Assembly: GCA_022841365.1 (NCBI GenBank)
Contig: JALHRP010000009.1
Location: 35,598-99,597, forward strand
Length of the DNA: 64,000 bases
Direction of reading: 5' to 3'
From: Chitinophagaceae bacterium
GTDB lineage: Bacteria; Bacteroidota; Bacteroidia; Chitinophagales; Chitinophagaceae
Shown here: positions 8,001 through 37,677 of the stretch, one piece after another
Layout of the letters: the number at the start of each line of letters is the position of its first letter
Numbering within the stretch: the first letter of the stretch is position 1
Program-made: the position numbers and the translations under genes
Notes under the pieces: model-generated
The model's database searches: none
The model's input: only the letters and a program-made list of their open reading frames with translations
Told to the model about the DNA's origin: nothing

Positions 8001-8867
8001 ATGAAAACACTTATTTTACTCTTCAAAACAAACTGCTTGAAATATTTTATTACCTGCATTGCGGTATGTATAGGTTTTGTGTTACATGCACAAACAGTCA
8101 GGCAGCCATTGGTCAGTTCTTATACAGGTCTTGGCGCTTACAGTAAACAGGCAACCGATGTATTTTCATTTAGTATTAACCCGGCTTCACTTGCAAACCT
8201 GCAGCAAGCCGGAGCAGGTGTTTACAGCGAGCGACGATTTTTACTCAATGCCTTTCAACAATATACAGCTGTAGGAGGCTTTACTACTAAGTCGGGCAAC
8301 TTTGGCTTGCAGGCAGATTATTTTGGATTCAGCAGTTACCGTGAAACTCAGCTGGGTTTAGGTTATGCAAGACAGTTAGGCAATAAAGTTGATGTGGGTG
8401 TAAAATTTAATTCTTACAATGTACAGATACCGGTGTACGGAAATGCATCCACTGTTTATTTTGAAGCAGGGGCTCTTTTGCATTTAACCGACAAGCTTCA
8501 TGCAGGGCTCAGTGTGTACAATCCTGTGGGAGGCAGATTAAATAAAACGGCTAATGAAAAAATGGCTTCGGTTTACAGAGGAGGATTGGGTTACGAAGTG
8601 TCTGATCAGTTTTTTATCAGTGCAGAAATGATCAAAGAAGAAAACAAACCAGCCGGTCTAAACGCCTGTTTTCAATATGCTGTTGTAAAACAGTTACTGG
8701 TACGTGCCGGCATCAATACGGTAAATAAACAACCCTATGCAGGAGTGGGGGTAAGGTTTGGTTTTTTCCGGATTGATATGGCAACAGCTTATCATCCGCA
8801 ATTGGGTGTATCACCTGCAGTGATGATGTTGTTTGATTTTAAAACAAAATCAACAGCAGAAGAATGA
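8001..8867 (+). CDS. PorV/PorQ-like outer-membrane beta-barrel protein
   Basis: A predicted outer-membrane barrel of 288 residues with an N-terminal signal ending in VLHAQ. After the signal comes a segment rich in small residues, [20 protein letters not shown], resembling the start of PorV/UPF0164-type barrels (Asn-Pro-Ala motif). Alternating beta strands follow to the end, finishing in a phenylalanine-containing MLFDFK strand. PorV and PorQ act in T9SS as shuttle or attachment proteins; membership here is inferred from the NPA motif and barrel pattern only. Its stop overlaps the start of the next gene (ATGA), so the two are surely translated together and may act as a pair. Confidence 0.65.
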
Positions 8868-10912
8868 AACAGTTTTTTCTGATAAGCTTCATCTTGATCT
8901 GTTGTTCAAATTCTATTGCACAGGAAGCTCCTGCGGCTGAACAACAGATTGAAAACAGCACAGAAGTGAATGAAGAAGAAACAGAAGATGATTCCTACAT
9001 CCAGTCCTTACAACATTATTTAAAGTACAAGCTTAATCTCAACAGAGCTAGTGAAACAGAACTAAAAGAATTCCCATTTCTTTCGCCTTTACAAATCGTC
9101 AGCTTTTTCGACTACCGTAAACTTTTTGGAAAATTGATTGACTTATATGAGCTGCAGTCTGTTCCGTTATGGGATGTAACCACCATCCAAAAAATACTTC
9201 CTTATGTAACTGTTGCAGGAGCAGTTTCATTGCAGGAAGATATGTTTAACCGTTTCAGGAAAGGAGAACATTCCATTCTTTCAAGAATTGGTTTTGTTGT
9301 AGAAAAGGCCGAAGGCTTTCGAAGAAAAGGCGATAGTACTGCAGGAAGTTTTTATCCCGGCAGCAGAGAACGGTTACTTCTGCGGTACAAATATCAATAT
9401 GGTAATTTATTACAGTATGGGTTTACAGCAGAAAAAGATCCCGGTGAACAGTGGTTCAGAGGTGCACAAAAAAAAGGATTCGATTTTTATTCTGCACATT
9501 TGTTTATCCGGAATACAGGAATTATTAAAAGCCTTGCTGTTGGCGATTTTACTTTGAATATGGGTCAAGGACTAATTCAATGGCAATCGCTGGCATTTAA
9601 AAAAAATGTTGATATCAGCAATATTAAAAGACAAGCCCCTGTTCTCAGACCATTTAATTCAACGAGTGAATTTTTTTACAACCGTGGTGCAGGGATAACA
9701 CTAGAACGAAAGCAGTTTCAGTTTACTGCATTCGCATCGCTGCGAAAAGTAAGCGGCAATATTGTTACAGATACTTTGCAGCAGGAAGATTATTTTTCTT
9801 CATTGCTTACCTCAGGCCTGCATCGAACCGCAAATGAACAGGCCGATAAAAATGCAGTACAAATGTTTTCTTACGGCAGTAATATCAGCTATCAAAAAAA
9901 CAATTTGCGGGTTGGTTTTAATGCTGTTCATTTTCAATTTAACCGTTCATATAATAAAGACAATCAACCCTATAATTATTTTGCGTTTCGTGGTAACAAA
10001 CTTACAAATGTAAGTGTAGACTGGAGTTATACCTGGCGTAACCTGCATTGGTTTGGAGAACTTGCTAATCACAATGCTGTTGCGTATGCAATGGTAAGTG
10101 GTTTGTTGATGAGTGTTGATCCAAAAGTTGATCTTTCATTTGTTTACAGGAATATTGAACCTGCTTATCAATCCATTTTTGGAAATGCGTTTACAGAAAA
10201 CACATTGCCTTCAAATGAAAAAGGATTGTTTGCAGGTATTGCCATAAAACCTTCTGTTAAATGGAAAATTGATGCCTACAGTGATATGTATCGGTTTCCA
10301 TTTCTCCGTTTCAGAGTGAATGCGCCATCAAGCGGGAATGATTATCTGGTACAGATCACTCACAAGCCCATCAAATCGGTTGAGATTTATACCAGATTCA
10401 GAACTGAAACAAAAGCGCTCAACTTTGCAGGAACCGATCCAATAAATGTTGCAGAACCTGTGCCGGTAAAACGCTCCAATTGGAGAACGCAGATTCAGTT
10501 TAAGCTAAACCCTGTCATTACTTTACGTCAACGGCTTGACTGGATGTGGTATCAACAGCAGGGATTGCCTGCCAGCACAGGTTTTCTTGCTTTTTTTGAT
10601 GTGTTTTACAAGCCCATGCTGAGTGCCTTTTCTGCAAACATGCGGCTACAGTATTTTGAAACTGATGATTTTAACAGCCGTATCTATGCTTTTGAAAATG
10701 ATGTGTTGTACAGTTTTTCCATCCCCGCTTTTTCTGATAAAGGATACCGGTACTACATAAACCTCAGCTACGATCTCACAAAAAGACTTTCCCTATGGGC
10801 ACGCTGGGCCCGGTTGATTTACAGGAACCGCACAGAGATAGGTTCGGGACTGGATGAAATACCCGGTAACAGACGTTCGGAAGTGAAAGTGCAAATCCTG
10901 TGGAAACTTTAA
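8864..10912 (+). CDS. Helix-hairpin-helix domain outer-membrane protein
   Basis: A 682-residue exported protein. The signal peptide ends in SNSIAQ and is followed by an acidic low-complexity stretch (about residues 20-45). A helix-hairpin-helix segment of the ComEA/GspK type spans about 58-115, with LNLNRASETELKEFPFLSP and a second hairpin near LYELQSVPLWDV. The rest is long and strand-rich, reading like an outer-membrane barrel to a final KVQILWKL strand. Proteins of this layout are known across Bacteroidota without an assigned function. The start overlaps the preceding PorV-like gene by 4 bp. The HhH part may bind DNA, as in ComEA, or protein; the sequence does not decide. No clear terminator follows. 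Confidence 0.7.
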   Translation: MKQFFLISFILICCSNSIAQEAPAAEQQIENSTEVNEEETEDDSYIQSLQHYLKYKLNLNRASETELKEFPFLSPLQIVSFFDYRKLFGKLIDLYELQSVPLWDVTTIQKILPYVTVAGAVSLQEDMFNRFRKGEHSILSRIGFVVEKAEGFRRKGDSTAGSFYPGSRERLLLRYKYQYGNLLQYGFTAEKDPGEQWFRGAQKKGFDFYSAHLFIRNTGIIKSLAVGDFTLNMGQGLIQWQSLAFKKNVDISNIKRQAPVLRPFNSTSEFFYNRGAGITLERKQFQFTAFASLRKVSGNIVTDTLQQEDYFSSLLTSGLHRTANEQADKNAVQMFSYGSNISYQKNNLRVGFNAVHFQFNRSYNKDNQPYNYFAFRGNKLTNVSVDWSYTWRNLHWFGELANHNAVAYAMVSGLLMSVDPKVDLSFVYRNIEPAYQSIFGNAFTENTLPSNEKGLFAGIAIKPSVKWKIDAYSDMYRFPFLRFRVNAPSSGNDYLVQITHKPIKSVEIYTRFRTETKALNFAGTDPINVAEPVPVKRSNWRTQIQFKLNPVITLRQRLDWMWYQQQGLPASTGFLAFFDVFYKPMLSAFSANMRLQYFETDDFNSRIYAFENDVLYSFSIPAFSDKGYRYYINLSYDLTKRLSLWARWARLIYRNRTEIGSGLDEIPGNRRSEVKVQILWKL

Positions 10913-29614: not shown

Positions 29615-31096
29615 ATGAAACCAAAATTAAAACTGATCCTTTTTATACTTCTGCTTACAAGTATAGGATTTGCAAAAGCTCAGCAGTTTGTAGGGCTTTA
29701 CAATGTATCATTTCCATCAAACCCAACTGTACCGGCTTATACAGCTGGTCCGGCAGCAATAAAGAAAGCCGATGGCACTAATCCAAATTCCGGAGCATTA
29801 TCTGTATCTGCTTCTTATTCCGATCAGCAATACGGAGTATTACCAAACGGTTTAACCGGATATGGTGATCTTGGTCTTATGTTTGGTATCAGTAACAATA
29901 ATAGTGGCAAAGTTCCTACACCTGCATCAGTAGGCGTACCGTTGGCCAATGTTGGTTCACCGGTAAACAGTTACTACTCGGCTCTTTCTACCCAAATTGG
30001 CACAGGGATGAACACATTTAATAACTATGCGTTTAATATGTTTGCCAGTGCAGAAGGTTTATCCGGACAGCCAACTAATGGAAGATATTATTTTGGTAAA
30101 GTAACCTTTACATTTTCACGCCCCGTCATAAATCCAATTTTACATGTAACAGGTCTTGGTGGTTTTTTAAGCATCAATGAACCTCCTTTTCCTACATTGC
30201 CATTTGCAGTTGATTTAGAACTTGATGAAGCAGGATTTCAAATTTCAAAATTGTCAGGTACTGCACGTACTCAATTAAACACAACGACTAAAACAATTTT
30301 TAACAGCTTTGATTATGTGCAGGATTACATTGTTGGCGGTCAAACTCCAGAAGGTGGAAACAATGCAGGTACAGGTAGCTTCCTTATTCAGGGAATAAAT
30401 GTTACAACCGTAACGTTTAAAATATATTTGAGAGGAATGGCTCAAAATCAGGTGTGGACTTCAAACGCCAATTATGTAAATGAAGTTTATAATGGTGATC
30501 GTTTTAATATCAGCTGGACGTTGCCAACTCAGCCCGAGAGTACATTGCCTGCAACAGGTGTGTATTTAAAAGCTGTATTAAATGGTAATGATGTTTCTTT
30601 AAACTGGAAAACTGTAAGTGAAATCAATTCCAAAGAATTTGAAATTGAAAGAAGTACCGATGGGGTTAATTTTAGCCGAATTGCAAGTAAAGATGCAGCT
30701 GGCAACAGTTTTTCTGAGATTAATTATGCGTTTACAGATGCAGCAATAACTAAACGGGTTTATTTTTATCGTTTAAAACTGGTAGATGTTGACAGATCTT
30801 ACACGTATAGTAATGTTGCTGTTATAAGAACAGCAGGCAGCAGTAAGGAAATAAAAACATTCCCCAATCCATTTACATCACAGTTAAATATTGAGTTTAA
30901 CAAGGCTAAAGGTTCATATATCATCAGTATGTTTAATCAGGCTGGTCAGGAAGTAAAAACCTTACGTGCTTTTATTGAAAATGATGTTCAGTACGTAAGT
31001 ATTAATCGTGGAATTCTTACATCAGGTTCATACGCTGTGCGTATTACTAATATTCTAACCGGAGAAGTGAGTGCTCAGAAAGTAATGATTCAGTAA
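29615..31096 (+). CDS. T9SS cargo protein with C-terminal sorting domain
   Basis: A 493-residue secreted protein. The signal peptide ends in GFAKAQ. The N-terminal 300 residues are strand-rich with GLGGFLSIN and NPILHVTGLGG motifs and match no family I can name. From about residue 310 comes a linker domain typical of Bacteroidota cargo (LNGNDVSLNWKTVSEINSKE, then FYRLKLVDVDRSYTYSNV), and the last 80 residues are a type A T9SS sorting domain (KTFPNPFTSQLNIEF, ending AVRITNILTGEVSAQKVMIQ). It lies 51 bp after the giant SdrD-repeat gene and probably shares its transcript, so the two proteins may act together. A terminator follows at 31116. Confidence 0.85.
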   Translation: MKPKLKLILFILLLTSIGFAKAQQFVGLYNVSFPSNPTVPAYTAGPAAIKKADGTNPNSGALSVSASYSDQQYGVLPNGLTGYGDLGLMFGISNNNSGKVPTPASVGVPLANVGSPVNSYYSALSTQIGTGMNTFNNYAFNMFASAEGLSGQPTNGRYYFGKVTFTFSRPVINPILHVTGLGGFLSINEPPFPTLPFAVDLELDEAGFQISKLSGTARTQLNTTTKTIFNSFDYVQDYIVGGQTPEGGNNAGTGSFLIQGINVTTVTFKIYLRGMAQNQVWTSNANYVNEVYNGDRFNISWTLPTQPESTLPATGVYLKAVLNGNDVSLNWKTVSEINSKEFEIERSTDGVNFSRIASKDAAGNSFSEINYAFTDAAITKRVYFYRLKLVDVDRSYTYSNVAVIRTAGSSKEIKTFPNPFTSQLNIEFNKAKGSYIISMFNQAGQEVKTLRAFIENDVQYVSINRGILTSGSYAVRITNILTGEVSAQKVMIQ

Positions 31097-31851: not shown

Positions 31852-32069
31852 GGCTGTTTTTTCTATAATTCGTGAGGCAGACAATATTTTTTTTGAATAT
31901 CAATAAAGTCTTTTATATATTCGCATTACGATCCTCCATATCTGGAAAACACCCTCTAAATCCGCTCATCCGAACAATCCAATTTTTACTTAGGAACACT
32001 GTTTTTTTTTTCTGGCAAATACAGTCCATCTTCCTGTGATCTGCTTTTTCTGGCAACAGAAATAGTAAA

Positions 32070-32110
32070 CACCATATCCTCAATGAATAGCTTTTTCAAA
32101 AGGTACCCCG
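32070..32110 (+). promoter_or_regulatory. Conserved leader element of T9SS cargo genes, copy 1
   Basis: CACC-ATATCCTCA-ATG then AATAGCTTTTTCAAAAGGTA. Matches the elements at 33518 and 35781. The ATG at 32083 is 64 nt before the gene start. Read as a peptide it begins MNSFFKRYP, but here the frame has no stop before the main gene and runs into it out of frame. Confidence 0.6.
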
Positions 32111-32146
32111 TGAAAAGAAAGTTTATTTTACCTCTAAACCTTTTTT

Positions 32147-33277
32147 ATGAAAAAGTTTTTACTCAGTTTTGTTTTTTTAGCGACCGTATTATTGTCAAAG
32201 GCTCAGTTTGTTGAAAGTTTTAATGGCGGTGTATTGCCAGCCGGTTGGGATCTTGCTCAAGGTATGAAGGTGCAGGATTATAACAATCCGTCAAATAATT
32301 GTATTACAGATTTTGGTCTCCTTACACCCGGAGTAGGTGGCAACAATCCTGCAAAAGTTTTAACGGGATCCAGTACTTACAATTCTTCAGCTTCTTTTAT
32401 TAATGTAGGGTTTACCATTTACATTTTTGATGCAAATCTTGCTTGCAGTTCTGTAAAAGCTCTGCCCTGCCAAACCTTTGTACAGGTTTATCTTGTAAAA
32501 GCCAGCTGGACATCTGCTTCAGTTCCTCCGGCATCTGAAATCCTTGCTCAAAGCTTAGTACAAATCGTACAATCGAACACAGCAAATATTCTATATGTTC
32601 CTACACCGGGTTTAACAAACGGTACACAATATCGTGTACTGTATGATTTTAGTGTTCAGGGCAACTGTAACCAGAATGGTACAAAGTATATTTTAGATGA
32701 ATTTAAAGTAATTACTACTGTTGGCGGTCCTTTACCTGTTGTATTAGGAAACTTTAACGCACAAAATAAAAATGGCAAAGTTAGTCTTACATGGGAAACT
32801 TTCCAGGAAGTTGAGAATGATGGTTTTGAAATTCAGCGTCGTGCAGGAAATGGCCGTTACGAAACAGTTGCTTTTGTAGATTCAAAAGTTGCAGGTGGTA
32901 CAGGATCAGGCGCTACTTATAGTTTTGATGACAATACTACATTGGCAAGAGGTGTTACTTATTATCGTCTTCGTCAGGTTGACTTTAACGGCAGATCTGG
33001 ATTTAGTGAAGTGAAAGCATTACGTGGTGCAGGCAGCCAGATTGTTGTTTCTGTTTATCCAAATCCAAGTCGTGGAACAACTAATGTTGCTATCCCTGAA
33101 GGCACGGGTAAAATGGATGTAAGTGTAGATGATTTTACGGGGAAATCGGTACAACGCTGGAGTGGTTTAAATGTTCGTAATCTGCAGATTACTAATCTGA
33201 AGCCGGGCATGTATCTGTTACGCATCACCATTCAGGAAACCGGTGAACAAATAACAGAGCGTATTTCAGTACAATAA
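32147..33277 (+). CDS. T9SS cargo protein, adhesin-like N-terminal domain
   Basis: A 376-residue secreted protein. The signal peptide MKKFLLSFVFLATVLLSKAQ is followed by an adhesin/MAM-like jelly-roll (about 20-195, FVESFNGGVLPAGWDLAQG). From about 200 the C-terminal half (LPVVLGNFNAQNKNGKVSL, then ENDGFEIQRRAGNGRYETV) is shared almost residue for residue with the next two cargo genes, and it ends in a type A T9SS sorting tail (VYPNPSRGTTNVAIPEG, ITERISVQ). It is the first of four cargo genes in tandem. It has both the conserved leader and the conserved 3' UTR element, and its own terminator, so it is probably a separate transcription unit. Confidence 0.85.
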   Translation: MKKFLLSFVFLATVLLSKAQFVESFNGGVLPAGWDLAQGMKVQDYNNPSNNCITDFGLLTPGVGGNNPAKVLTGSSTYNSSASFINVGFTIYIFDANLACSSVKALPCQTFVQVYLVKASWTSASVPPASEILAQSLVQIVQSNTANILYVPTPGLTNGTQYRVLYDFSVQGNCNQNGTKYILDEFKVITTVGGPLPVVLGNFNAQNKNGKVSLTWETFQEVENDGFEIQRRAGNGRYETVAFVDSKVAGGTGSGATYSFDDNTTLARGVTYYRLRQVDFNGRSGFSEVKALRGAGSQIVVSVYPNPSRGTTNVAIPEGTGKMDVSVDDFTGKSVQRWSGLNVRNLQITNLKPGMYLLRITIQETGEQITERISVQ

Positions 33278-33281
33278 AGAG

Positions 33282-33305
33282 GGACAGGAAAAACCAGATA
33301 AAACC
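33282..33305 (+). promoter_or_regulatory. 24-nt 3' UTR element, copy 1
   Basis: GGACAGGAAAAACC followed by AGATAAAACC, identical at 35526 and 37399. It begins 4 nt after the stop codon and ends just before the terminator hairpin. Confidence 0.7.
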
Positions 33306-33314
33306 AAAAAAGAT

Positions 33315-33350
33315 GGGAGCTTTATATTTATAAAGCTTCCTCTTTCTTAA
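33315..33350 (+). terminator. Intrinsic terminator of cargo gene 1
   Basis: GGGAGCTTTATA-TTTA-TATAAAGCTTCC-type hairpin followed by TCTTTCTT. Confidence 0.7.
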
Positions 33351-33517
33351 CTTTTTTATATTCAAATTTTTCTGTTTTACACCATATTCAATCGTATACA
33401 AACTAATATCCTGTTGTAACTCCGATTTGCTAAATACAATCCTATCAATTTCCTTTCCAATCTTTCTATGATTTCATAAGTAAAAGGCGTTGTCTTTTCT
33501 TATCTCTAATAATATAA

Positions 33518-33579
33518 CACCTCTATCCATAATGATAAGCTTTTTCAAACCCTGTCCTTTGATCTGCCTATTTTCTTAA
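33518..33579 (+). promoter_or_regulatory. Conserved leader element of T9SS cargo genes, copy 2, with possible mini-ORF
   Basis: CACCTCTATCCATA-ATG then ATAAGCTTTTTCAAACCC. The ATG at 33532 is 66 nt before the gene start and opens a 15-codon frame MISFFKPCPLICLFS ending at TAA 33577-33579. The rest of the 320-bp gap (33278-33597) holds the 3' element and terminator of the previous gene and AT-rich sequence in which I recognise nothing else. Confidence 0.55.
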
Positions 33580-33597
33580 ACATCTAAATTAAAAGTT

Positions 33598-35520
33598 ATG
33601 AAAAAGTTTTTACTCAATCTCTTACTGTTATCAATGTGGGGCTTCAGTTTTTCACAGGATTTGCCTGCCCCGGCTGCCAATTTGCAAAATCTTCCCGCAG
33701 GCAGCTATATAATTGCAATGGATAATGCAAATCAAAATACGGGTACAGCTTTCAGCGTTTCGGCCAAAATAACCATCAGTAGCGGAAGTAACACGGGTAC
33801 TTTAGATAATGCTGGCAGTGTTGAGGTTGGAATGGTTCTTTCCGGTCAGTCTGCAATCCCTGTGGGTACAACAGTTACAGCTATTAATTATACTACAAAC
33901 GTTGTAACACTTAGTGCAGTTACAACTGCAGCTATCAGTAATAAATCTGTTACTTTTACCGGTAGTGGTTTGTTTAATATGAAAGCTTATGGCCTGATTG
34001 TATATCTGCTAAATAATAATGTTAAACTGAAATGGGTTATTAATGCAGGTAAAGCAAAGGATGCAGCAGATTTTTCTGTAGCTTCTACACGCATTAAACC
34101 AACAGTTGCCGCAACTCCATCATCAAATTTTAAAGCCGGTCCATTTGTAATTTCAGCTTCTGATATAGCTGGCGTTGATGCTTTAATTGATGCGTATAAT
34201 AATAATTTAAATTCCGGAACAGATGTAAATGTTTACGTTACAACAGCTCCAGTAATTGTGGATGTACGATATGATATGACAGGGTTTAAACCAAAAGCAG
34301 CCATCTTAAATGATGGTGGAAATGCATCAATTCATGTTGCATATATGACAGCAGCAGGCGTACCTTCAGTTAGTTATTTAACTGTATCAACTGGAGCAAC
34401 CCTTACAACAAGTTGCTTCACCTTTGCATCTGAGCCACATAATACTTCTGCTACTTCAAGTTTAATTGGTCAGATCAGAAGTTTTGTTCAAAAAGGCGGT
34501 AATTTTCTCGCCCAATGTGAGGCAGTAAGAACATATGAGAATGAAGCTGTTAATGGACGATTTCACAGTACTCGTGGAGATGCAAATGCAGTGTTTGAAA
34601 AAGGCGGAGGAGGTAACACGAATGCAACAATTGAAAATAATATCAACTTTCCCAATCCAAACTTAGCGTATTCACAATTTGAAGGACAGTTTAATGGGAA
34701 TATTACAGGAAGTCTGCAAAACTGGAAATTAACAAGCGGGAGTTCTTACATAAACAACGCACATAATCATGCAGAAGGTGCACTCTTACCTGCTGCAGTT
34801 TCTGCAAGTGTTTCTAAGTTAGTTGCATCAAATCTTAAAGGAGGGTTGGTTTTTTACCTGGGAAATCATACATACAGCTTAGCCGACCGTGCAAACGTTA
34901 ATGGCATGCGGATGTATTTAAATGCATTTCTTACTCCTGTTTCGATTAATTCAAACTGTCCTATTGGCGGACCTTTACCAGTAGTGCTGGCTAATTTTAA
35001 AGCCATTAATAAAAATGGTAAGGCCTCACTTTCATGGGAAACATTGCAGGAAGTAGAAAATGATGGTTTTGAAATTCAGCGTCGTACGGGCAATGGCCGT
35101 TATGAAACAGTGGCGTTTGTTGATTCAAAAGTAGCGGGTGGTACAGGATCGGGTACATCTTACAGTTTTGATGATAATGCAGTTTTAGGTAAAGCAGTAA
35201 CTTATTACCGCCTCCGTCAGATAGACTTAAATGGTAAATCTGAATTCAGTGAAGTAAAGGCATTACGTGGTGCAGGCGGCAAAATCATCGTGTCAGTTTA
35301 TCCAAACCCCAGCCTCGGAACAACAAATATTGTTATTCCTGAAGGAGCTGGAAAAATGGATGTAAGCCTGGACGATTTTACAGGTAAATCGGTGAAACGA
35401 TGGAGCGGGTTAAATGTGCGTAATCTTCAGATTACAAATCTGAAACCCGGCATGTATCTTTTACGCATAACCATTCAGGAAACAGGTGAACAAATATCTG
35501 AACGAATTACTGTACAATAA
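33598..35520 (+). CDS. T9SS cargo protein with amidotransferase-like central domain
   Basis: A 640-residue secreted protein with signal peptide MKKFLLNLLLLSMWGFSFSQ. Residues 25-125 look like a repetitive strand-rich domain (ITISSGSNTGTLDNAGS). Residues about 165-455 contain FVQKGGNFLAQCEAVRTYE and GGLVFYLGNHTYSLADRANV, reminiscent of the class I amidotransferase/ThuA-like fold used for ligand binding; this is tentative. The last 180 residues (LPVVLANFKAINKNGK to ISERITVQ) nearly repeat those of the gene before it, including the T9SS sorting tail. The central part has no similarity to its neighbours. It carries the shared leader and 3' UTR element. Confidence 0.82.
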   Translation: MKKFLLNLLLLSMWGFSFSQDLPAPAANLQNLPAGSYIIAMDNANQNTGTAFSVSAKITISSGSNTGTLDNAGSVEVGMVLSGQSAIPVGTTVTAINYTTNVVTLSAVTTAAISNKSVTFTGSGLFNMKAYGLIVYLLNNNVKLKWVINAGKAKDAADFSVASTRIKPTVAATPSSNFKAGPFVISASDIAGVDALIDAYNNNLNSGTDVNVYVTTAPVIVDVRYDMTGFKPKAAILNDGGNASIHVAYMTAAGVPSVSYLTVSTGATLTTSCFTFASEPHNTSATSSLIGQIRSFVQKGGNFLAQCEAVRTYENEAVNGRFHSTRGDANAVFEKGGGGNTNATIENNINFPNPNLAYSQFEGQFNGNITGSLQNWKLTSGSSYINNAHNHAEGALLPAAVSASVSKLVASNLKGGLVFYLGNHTYSLADRANVNGMRMYLNAFLTPVSINSNCPIGGPLPVVLANFKAINKNGKASLSWETLQEVENDGFEIQRRTGNGRYETVAFVDSKVAGGTGSGTSYSFDDNAVLGKAVTYYRLRQIDLNGKSEFSEVKALRGAGGKIIVSVYPNPSLGTTNIVIPEGAGKMDVSLDDFTGKSVKRWSGLNVRNLQITNLKPGMYLLRITIQETGEQISERITVQ

Positions 35521-35525
35521 ATCAG

Positions 35526-35549
35526 GGACAGGAAAAACCAGATAAAACC
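35526..35549 (+). promoter_or_regulatory. 24-nt 3' UTR element, copy 2
   Basis: Identical to copies at 33282 and 37399 over all 24 nt; begins 5 nt after the stop codon, a different reading frame from copy 1. Confidence 0.7.
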
Positions 35550-35559
35550 AAGAATGACT

Positions 35560-35590
35560 GAAGCCTCACGAAAGTGGGGCTTCTTTGTTT
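35560..35590 (+). terminator. Intrinsic terminator of cargo gene 2
   Basis: GAAGCCTCAC-GAAA-GTGGGGCTTC followed by TTTGTTT; one wobble pair. Confidence 0.75.
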
Positions 35591-35780
35591 ATCTTAAATC
35601 AATTATTTTTTTTGAATGCTTGCAAATGTCAAAACAGAAAAGTATTTTAGTCTCAGCAAACCCAAATATCCTTAAACACCGCTTAATCTTCAATTCCTTC
35701 CCATCCAATTCTTACTGGATTTTTTTATCTCTGTTACCTGTGATTAAAGTTTTTACTGTTGCATAAATAGTTTTAGCTAT

Positions 35781-35836
35781 CACCTATATCCTCAATGATA
35801 AACTTTTTCAAAAGGTGTCCTTTGATCGACCTCTGA
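35781..35836 (+). promoter_or_regulatory. Conserved leader element of T9SS cargo genes, copy 3, with possible mini-ORF
   Basis: CACCTATATCCTCA-ATG then ATAAACTTTTTCAAAAGG. The ATG at 35795 is 68 nt before the gene start and opens a 13-codon frame MINFFKRCPLIDL ending at TGA 35834-35836. The rest of the 342-bp gap (35521-35862) holds the previous gene's 3' element and terminator; the 70-residue frame on the ORF track across it overlaps the terminator and is not convincing. Confidence 0.55.
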
Positions 35837-35862
35837 TTTTTTTATAACCTCAAAACCTTTGT

Positions 35863-37389
35863 ATGAAAAAGTTTTTACAATTTTTTATCGGAATCGTATT
35901 TCTTGGCTTAGCCAATAAAGTTAACGCCCAATGCGCTGTTGGTGAACAGATCATTGTTGTAAAAAATATTGACGGAACAAACCCTGCTAATTGTAAGGTA
36001 ACTGTTGATATTGTCTTTGATCTTGAGAATAACGCAGGTAATAAGTATGTGTTTATTCATGCTTTCAGGGCTGCTGATTATCCGGGTTATTTTGAACTGG
36101 CTAAACCGGGCACCTGCCAAACACCTGCTAACCCTAACCCTAATCAACCCACTGCGCCTCCACCTGTAAGAGGAACAAATGCGCAGGGTAATCTGGATGC
36201 TGCCATTTTAAACATAGGATTCAATAATGATTTGGGCACAGGCGGATATTTATCTTATATTACCAGTGCTCAGTATACACCAGATGCTGGAACTGTGATG
36301 ACCATTGGCTCAGGCCTCGTTGAAAAAACAGCCAGCCCTGTTGCAGGTTTCTCCCGTTATACGATGCGTGATGTAGTGGTATTTACAGGAGCACCCTGTG
36401 GCAGTCCGCTAACTATTAAAGCAGATTTATGGTCTTCACAGGCATCTTCTTTATCAGTAGCACATTGCTGGAGATGTAATTTTACATACCTCTTCAATGA
36501 ACCGCAAATTACAGGTTTAGTGAATTGTACCAGTCCAAGAACAGTAAACTTCCAACTCTCAACAAACAGTACAACTGCACTTTCAGGAGTTTATCGCATT
36601 TATGTGGACAATACTCCTTTCGGAAGTTTTGGTACAGAAGATACTCAGTTAGCTCCCGATGCTTCAGGATCGTTCAGTGGGTTAACAAATTCAAGTACAC
36701 AATTCTTTAATAATATTCCCTACAACGGAAACAATGTTGGAAGTGAATCAACAAAAGCATTGTGGGTTGAAGCAGTTGTAACCAATCCGGTTGGCACACA
36801 GACCAACTCAACCGTGAAACTGATCACCAACGGATGTAATACTTTGCCGGTTTCATTACGTTCATTTAATGCGGTACAAAGAGGTGGTAAAGCTTCTCTT
36901 ACCTGGGAAACATCTCTGGAAACAGATAATGATGGTTTTGAAGTACAGCGTCGTTTAGGAAACGGACGTTATGAAACCATTGCATTTGTTGATTCAAAAG
37001 CACCAGGAGGAAATGGTGGTGCTTATAATTACAGTTTTGATGATCAGTTAAGTTTACCAAAAGGCGTTGCATACTACCGCATTCGTCAGGTAGATTTAAA
37101 CGGCAGATCAAGTTACAGTGAAGTAAGGGCATTGAGAAGTGGTAATGGTCAGATTGTGGTTGCTGTATATCCCAACCCGAGCAGAGGTGCAACCAATGTT
37201 GCTATTCCGGAAGGCGCAGGAATTATGGATGTTTCACTTGATGACTATTCCGGTAAATCAATACAACGCTGGAACGGCATCAATGTACGCAACCTGCAAT
37301 TAACAAATCTCAAACCCGGTATTTATATGCTGCGCATTAATTTCCGTGAAAGCGGTGAACAAATTACTGAACGGATTTTAGTACAATAG
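35863..37389 (+). CDS. T9SS cargo protein, paralogue of the following gene
   Basis: A 508-residue secreted protein with signal peptide ending in KVNAQ. The N-terminal 320 residues (VDIVFDLENNAGNKYVFIH, CWRCNFTYLFNEPQITG, NCTSPRTVNFQL) are homologous to the next gene (FTAEENNGAKYTWLHLW, NCVYPRTYNLFIDS) but not to the two before it. The C-terminal 180 residues (LPVSLRSFNAVQRGGKASL to ITERILVQ) instead match the two preceding genes, including the type A sorting tail with VAVYPNPSRGATNVAIPEG. It therefore joins a different front to the same back end, and it shares their leader and 3' UTR element. Confidence 0.85.
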   Translation: MKKFLQFFIGIVFLGLANKVNAQCAVGEQIIVVKNIDGTNPANCKVTVDIVFDLENNAGNKYVFIHAFRAADYPGYFELAKPGTCQTPANPNPNQPTAPPPVRGTNAQGNLDAAILNIGFNNDLGTGGYLSYITSAQYTPDAGTVMTIGSGLVEKTASPVAGFSRYTMRDVVVFTGAPCGSPLTIKADLWSSQASSLSVAHCWRCNFTYLFNEPQITGLVNCTSPRTVNFQLSTNSTTALSGVYRIYVDNTPFGSFGTEDTQLAPDASGSFSGLTNSSTQFFNNIPYNGNNVGSESTKALWVEAVVTNPVGTQTNSTVKLITNGCNTLPVSLRSFNAVQRGGKASLTWETSLETDNDGFEVQRRLGNGRYETIAFVDSKAPGGNGGAYNYSFDDQLSLPKGVAYYRIRQVDLNGRSSYSEVRALRSGNGQIVVAVYPNPSRGATNVAIPEGAGIMDVSLDDYSGKSIQRWNGINVRNLQLTNLKPGIYMLRINFRESGEQITERILVQ

Positions 37390-37398
37390 AATTTCTTT

Positions 37399-37422
37399 GG
37401 ACAGGAAAAACCAGATAAAACC
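37399..37422 (+). promoter_or_regulatory. 24-nt 3' UTR element, copy 3
   Basis: Identical to copies at 33282 and 35526; begins 9 nt after the stop codon, 2 nt before the terminator stem. Confidence 0.7.
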
Positions 37423-37423
37423 G

Positions 37424-37458
37424 AAGAAGAAGAGGCCTCCGCAAGGAGGCTTCTTCGT
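37424..37458 (+). terminator. Intrinsic terminator of cargo gene 3
   Basis: GAAGAAGAGGCCTCC-GCAA-GGAGGCTTCTTC followed by GTTTTT. Confidence 0.8.
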
Positions 37459-37677
37459 TTTTATACTTAACCGAATGATCAAGATCAGCTTATTACATTT
37501 TACAATCAATGAGAATCATTGTTTCAGTAAATGGCTAAGTATACCTTTAAAAAAATAATTACATGCAGCGCTTATTCTACACTGTTCCTTTCTGAACATC
37601 CGGCGTTAGATGGAAAAGAACAGCAGCTCAAAAAAACGTATAAACAGCCGGTAATCATCATTTCAAAACTGTTCTTT

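Follow-up and report, generated by a model that had tools for sequence, protein, structure and literature searches.

The window analysed here, a stretch of 64,000 nucleotides, holds an array of genes for T9SS type A sorting-domain proteins on its forward strand. Three of these are of interest: g1 (32147-33277, 376 aa), which scored over cut-off for both TIGR04183 and PF18962, and g2 (33598-35520, 640 aa) and g3 (35863-37389, 508 aa), which matched the same two models. The 3' UTR of each contains the 24-mer GGACAGGAAAAACCAGATAAAACC without a single mismatch, against zero copies expected from 100 shuffles. Copy 1 (33282-33305) begins 4 nt past the TAA at 33275-33277, copy 2 (35526-35549) begins 5 nt past the TAA at 35518-35520, and copy 3 (37399-37422) begins 9 nt past a stop codon ending at 37389. 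By sequence and predicted fold, a terminator-like hairpin follows each copy on the same strand: at 33316-33346 for copy 1 (hairpin ~33316-33341, with a weak T-run), at 35560-35591 for copy 2 (hairpin ~35560-35583), and at 37423-37461 for copy 3 (hairpin ~37423-37458, plus a T-run), the last also being found by a covariance model (R1). The element is absent from array gene 4 (37531/37678-39255), which has a T9SS type A sorting domain, and from the T9SS gene preceding the array (29615-31096), whose sorting domain fell just under the NCBIfam cut-off and over that of Pfam. The original prediction placed the three exact copies between stop codon and terminator, in three different frames with spacers of 4, 5, and 9 nt, and excluded read-through coding. 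The stops at 33277, 35520, and 37389 confirmed this, since both spacers and stops differ among the copies.

All genuine gene-borne copies lie on the mRNA strand, 4-11 nt past the stop codon, with a terminator-like hairpin directly 3'. In the alignment of genus copies these hairpins vary freely in sequence, while the element does not. Predicted folds left the element mostly unpaired (0.49-0.78). In g3-type copies, UUCUUUGG on the 5' side and CCGAAGAA on the 3' side can close a stem that holds the element in its loop, as indicated by the alignment and by the fold of the window's g3. Position, strand, hairpin, and fold therefore indicate a role at the level of RNA rather than DNA.

The presence of the element in other genomes was also investigated, as proposed with the original prediction, by searching the genome and the family with mismatches allowed. 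The organism's own genome (4.56 Mb) contained only the three copies of GGACAGGAAAAACCAGATAAAACC at up to 3 mismatches. Within the genus, 11 of 14 genomes (this one and 10 more) carried the element at the same locus, for a total of 20 copies. An 11-nt core, AAAACCAGATA, was invariant in 20/20 copies, and sub-types were distinguished by their endings (AAAACC, AAGATC/AAGATA, and AGAACC). The locus is syntenic across the genus, with a cytidylate kinase, the T9SS array, and an amylase-family gene; the members that lack the element (G346, G369, and G396) have no g1-g3 type gene or no array. Other T9SS genes in the element-bearing genomes are also without it. Only a single paralogous sub-family, g1-g3, carried the element, always at the same syntenic locus and in this genus alone, and the earlier idea that it tags secreted-protein messages in general was not upheld. 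A wider distribution in the family was rejected, as 3-mismatch matches outside the genus (394 family genomes) were at the level of chance and mostly coding. The majority of these look-alikes fell in one conserved ORF reading GQEKPxKT (L004-L009, L011-L014, L022, and L025), and the rest were in scattered, unrelated places. When 84,980 species genomes were scanned for exact matches, only two contigs were returned, both from Chitinophagaceae MAGs, one with the layout of genome G292 and the other corresponding to G395. Outside the genus, model R1 (element plus terminator) detected mostly generic terminators, at ≤45 bits vs. ≥68 bits within the genus. The window had no Rfam match at the gathering score, and the locus gave only a chance miRNA match (E 0.68). 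Separately, ~280 nt of non-coding sequence 3' of a gene (L197 and L198, ~1450-1800), which contains TCTGGTTTTTTTCTGTCC, was near-identical between G292 and the window's genome and diverged abruptly thereafter.

Synonymous divergence was compared with conservation of the element. Across the last 160 codons, four-fold sites were identical at 33/66, 19/52, and 18/49 positions between the g1/g2/g3 pairs, which is near saturation and bears out the many synonymous differences reported in the original prediction. Nucleotide identity of the g1-g3 coding ends was 0.70-0.81, while the element was identical at 24/24. The same was observed between species: the window's g3 and its orthologues in G321, G213, G160, and G395 shared 33-44% of four-fold sites, and the element was still 24/24. 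Four-fold identities of 0.33-0.56, between paralogues and between distant orthologues alike, thus stand against an unchanged element. This pattern supports strong purifying selection at the nucleotide level across the genus, and the element is very probably a conserved functional RNA element. The E- and p-values reported here are rough, and the copies are related and hence not independent observations.

Two genomes retained the element without a host gene. In G390 and G394, where g1 itself has lost its copy and no g3 ORF is left, the element and its terminator are kept ~330-366 nt 3' of g1. These orphan copies read (A/T)AAGGAAAAACCAGATA(G/A)AACC(G/A)AAG followed by a hairpin, and they are candidate free-standing small RNAs on the minus strand of contigs L040 (~8191-8268) and L087 (~8803-8880). 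Element and flank were alike at 25/28 nt between the two genomes, compared to 21/25 for the next-best 25-mer upstream (T-rich) and 16/25 downstream; four-fold sites of g1 were 0.53 identical. Under the parsimonious reading that g3 was lost once in a common ancestor of G390 and G394, the module would have been kept in the absence of its host gene. The sequence upstream of the orphans showed no canonical promoter box. A weak TTTG-like sequence could be read by eye before g3-type copies, and any promoter boxes that could serve a separate small RNA are weak.

Element-bearing genes also have a common 5' leader of ~220 nt, in which a predicted helix buries the start codon. A promoter-like TTTG-N20-TATATTCG of the Bacteroidetes type precedes g1 (31892-31923, forward strand), and five other genomes have TATCTTCG at a matching distance (−231 to −237); transcription of g1 would therefore start ~215-220 nt before the AUG. 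A hairpin in the g1 leader (helix 2, 32036-32072) showed compensatory changes in orthologues, with four pairs changed on both sides and covariation exceeding that of each of 500 shuffles and of every slid control. The long helix pairs CUUUUUCAAAAGG, which lies ~50 nt upstream, with CCUUUUUUAUGAAAAAG, which covers the start codon, and it was recovered by independent predictions in g1-type and g3-type leaders and in 20/20 leaders. In the window, its arms are GCUUUUUCAAAAGG (32090-32103), which pairs over the start codon, and the start-codon arm CCUUUUUUAUGAAAAAGU (32139-32156) for g1, CUUUUUCAAACC (33540-33551) for g2, and AACUUUUUCAAAAGG (35801-35815) for g3, all on the forward strand. The start region, ATGAAAAAGTTTTTAC, was invariant at the nucleotide level in 20/20 leaders. 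Covariation in the start helix is limited to its outer part because the arms hardly vary; examples are UACAA/UUGUA in the g3 leaders of G258 and G083 and AAC/GUU in the window's g2 leader. Predicted start-codon accessibility was low in these leaders (0.08-0.31); 30 other genes in the window averaged 0.51.

Leader and element were associated within the genus: 18/20 genes with the leader carried the element, compared to 0/16 T9SS genes without it, although these counts are not phylogenetically independent. In a sister genus (G100 and G224), the orthologous gene following the kinase has the leader helix and lacks the element. The start helix there (L106 and L107, ~1500-1610) consists of AAAAACUUUUUC with GAAAAAGUUUUU, and no 24-nt element was found downstream. 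An order-wide scan for the leader in 348 genomes gave one further weak match (G511, 37 bits). The leaders at 32090-32156, 33540-33607, and 35801-35872 are possibly cis-regulatory RNAs or RNA thermometers in their own right. Two side observations were made on these genes. An orthologous T9SS gene in G224 (L136:6989-8218) is seemingly frame-shifted, with the sorting-domain end in another frame past the first stop, and the junction at the g2 start in G292 (L038, minus strand), compared with window positions 32147 and 33598, looks as if g1 had been lost when the two invariant start regions recombined; the array behaves like a set of cassettes that vary in their N-terminal parts.

Using RNAduplex on 240-nt leaders, the best computed partner of the element was the g1 leader at about −140. 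The predicted duplex joins UGGACAG-GAAA-AACCAGA with UCUGGUU-AUA-CUGUCCA, the g1 leaders of other species carrying TTCTGGTT-ATA-CTGTCCAT, which is complementary to the element. Duplex energies were −20 to −21 kcal/mol in G160, G213, G321, G395, G258, and G083 and −19.8 kcal/mol in G292, with an empirical p of ~0.01 (0.1-2.5% vs. composition-matched 25-mers or other windows). Where species differ, they do so within unpaired loops, on the element side (GAAA/AAA) as well as on the leader side (AUA/AAUA/CAAAUA). Searching for TCTGGTT-N1-6-CTGTCC, the g1 leader was the only non-self match genome-wide in seven genomes (the six with the duplex plus G394), and four scattered matches occurred in G292 and G000. 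The split-complement matches away from the locus were rejected as candidates: two were coding or antisense, and one, common to G292 and G000, was 3' of a gene and did not resemble a leader when aligned. This uniqueness speaks to specificity and provides no independent p-value, because the duplex was already known when the split pattern was picked.

The window's own g1 leader has a site, TTCTGGCAAATACAGTCCAT (32010-32029, forward strand), that is the decayed form of the one in other species. Degraded to CTGGCAAATACAGTCC, it gave a duplex of −14.7 kcal/mol with p ~0.16, no better than chance. Additionally, G397 has kept the core with a leader that lacks the complementary site, and G390 has kept it with the site broken, so the core must have another partner too. 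The 3' half of the element (AUAAAACC) is also not accounted for by pairing with the g1 leader. A second pairing at about −45, adjoining the start helix (GGACA/GAAAAA with UGUCC/CUUUUUC, in all leaders), was initially appealing as both sides are absent in G390, G394, and G397; it was rejected, as its energies equalled those of shuffled elements in most pairs. Trans targets were sought via the complement of CAGGAAAAACCAGATA, which yielded many 2-mismatch matches and no convincing set of 5' UTRs; one 2-mismatch match, TATCTGGTTTCACCTG, recurs across several genomes.

Among characterized systems, the closest architecture to which the element may be likened is that of the FopS sRNAs. In Bacteroides thetaiotaomicron, these repress mRNAs for surface transporters, and RbpB, an RNA-binding protein of the RRM_1 class, antagonises the effect (PMC11697453). 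FopS and the element occur in the same phylum, and each is present in several copies, in which an intrinsic terminator comes after a single-stranded stretch of near-identical sequence (for the element, predicted only). One FopS member is 3'-UTR-derived, FopS acts on mRNAs of outer-membrane and surface proteins, and both genomes encode RRM proteins. The element differs from FopS in sequence, in that its copies are 3' UTRs of adjacent paralogues (except for the two orphans in relatives), and in its predicted site, which is ~140 nt upstream of the start codon rather than at it. FopS has been deposited in Rfam (PMC11697453), of which release 15, the release searched with the window, may not include it. 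Because no Rfam family matches, we suggest that the element works like FopS rather than that it is a FopS.

Pairing between 5' and 3' UTRs has a precedent in the icaR mRNA of Staphylococcus aureus (PMC3868564). The g1 genes of six species resemble it in their 5'-3' complementarity (~−20 kcal/mol, p ~0.01), which does not extend to the window's g1. Pairing in icaR occurs at the Shine-Dalgarno region and involves a long 3' UTR, whereas here a short 3' UTR would pair well ahead of the AUG, the best site (about −140) not covering the initiation region. The Vibrio sRNAs OppZ and CarZ are 3'-UTR-derived and autoregulatory (PMC7398697), and they share with the element the proposal that a message's 3' end acts on its own or a sister gene. 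Sequence conservation beyond the coding flank, as is looked for in 3'-UTR-derived sRNAs, was observed here. OppZ and CarZ differ in being processed sRNAs of a Gram-negative with Hfq, and here there are several identical copies, not one. With regard to start-codon-occluding 5' leaders, an arm over the AUG was predicted in all 20 genus leaders, which matched no known family and, apart from the weak match in G511, were seen only in the genus and one sister genus. Such leaders are noteworthy because Flavobacterium johnsoniae, also of this phylum, tunes initiation through the structure of the mRNA and through adenines upstream, not by Shine-Dalgarno pairing (PMC6847099).

The original prediction offered protein or small RNA binding, or an effect on termination or mRNA stability, as possible functions. 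Nucleotide-level constraint and the survival of the orphans support a functional element, for which each of these actions is a candidate. As the best single reading, with a probability of roughly 0.4, we propose that this 3'-UTR module base-pairs, either in cis or after release as a small RNA. The element would be a genus-specific regulatory RNA module that ends the messages of paralogous T9SS-exported proteins, with a mostly unpaired conserved stretch and an intrinsic terminator directly 3'. It might be transcribed as a separate RNA or act within the long mRNA, pair with its target in the cell, and thereby affect translation or stability. One putative target is the structured g1 leader, where UCUGGUU-(3-4 nt)-CUGUCC, ~140 nt before the AUG, could pair with GGACAG-(3-4 nt)-AACCAGA; the array leaders would otherwise bury the start codon in the long helix. 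Because g1, g2, and g3 have the same element, their identical 3' ends could co-ordinate expression of the array, with either sign.

Recognition by an RNA-binding protein (for instance an RRM_1 protein resembling RbpA/B/C), with stabilisation, localisation, or repression of the messages as the outcome, is a possible but doubtful explanation. The core AAAACCAGATA extends beyond what pairing with g1 requires and is retained in G397 and G390, most of the A-rich stretch is unpaired and, in g3-type copies, placed in a loop, and four RRM_1 proteins are encoded in the organism's own genome; yet the g1 pairing would then be coincidental, and chance would have to account for the split complement found in the g1 leaders of six species. 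An aid to termination, or protection of the 3' end from exonucleases, acting only in cis, seems quite unlikely. Such a role would suit an element that is always directly 5' of the terminator hairpin and that sits, in g3-type copies, on an additional stem adjoining the terminator, but terminators need no sequence-specific upstream box of 24 nt, the neighboring T9SS genes that lack the element (g4 and p5) have ordinary terminators, and the hairpins drift where the element is fixed. At the level of DNA, recombining cassettes could have kept the 24-mer and ATGAAAAAGTTTTTAC by gene conversion or as a recombination site, consistent with conserved leaders and C-terminal ends flanking variable N-terminal parts and with a g1 leader joined to a g2 body in G292, as expected if the start regions recombined with each other. 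This is highly improbable, however, given that identity holds between species at saturated distances, where conversion among paralogues cannot keep it, that flanking coding sequence is not homogenised, that orphan copies persist without a cassette, and that the element is always placed and oriented as part of a 3' UTR. Recent duplication, which the original prediction had thought insufficient unless these three copies were the only ones and synonymous divergence was low, would fit three adjacent paralogues with the only copies in their genome, but it can be discarded: against 24/24 in the element, four-fold sites reach no more than 37-50% identity, and orthologues throughout the genus have the element next to them as well.

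Taken further, base pairing by the module could form part of a genus-specific, self-contained circuit for surface proteins, in which a module shared by paralogous T9SS cargo messages pairs with an array leader 5' of the helix that buries the start codon, co-ordinates which of the cargo proteins are produced, and, in two species, has remained as a free-standing RNA after the loss of its host gene; we regard this fuller version as unlikely as a whole. To our knowledge, little has been recorded on the control of T9SS cargo genes in Bacteroidota apart from the PorX/PorY/SigP route, and searching the literature gave no comparable 3'-UTR element for T9SS genes. The host phylum initiates translation without Shine-Dalgarno pairing, and its RNA regulation is known mainly from Bacteroides. 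In this setting, a short sequence that stays intact over saturated divergence, together with a leader predicted to occlude the start codon, presents a directly testable post-transcriptional system.
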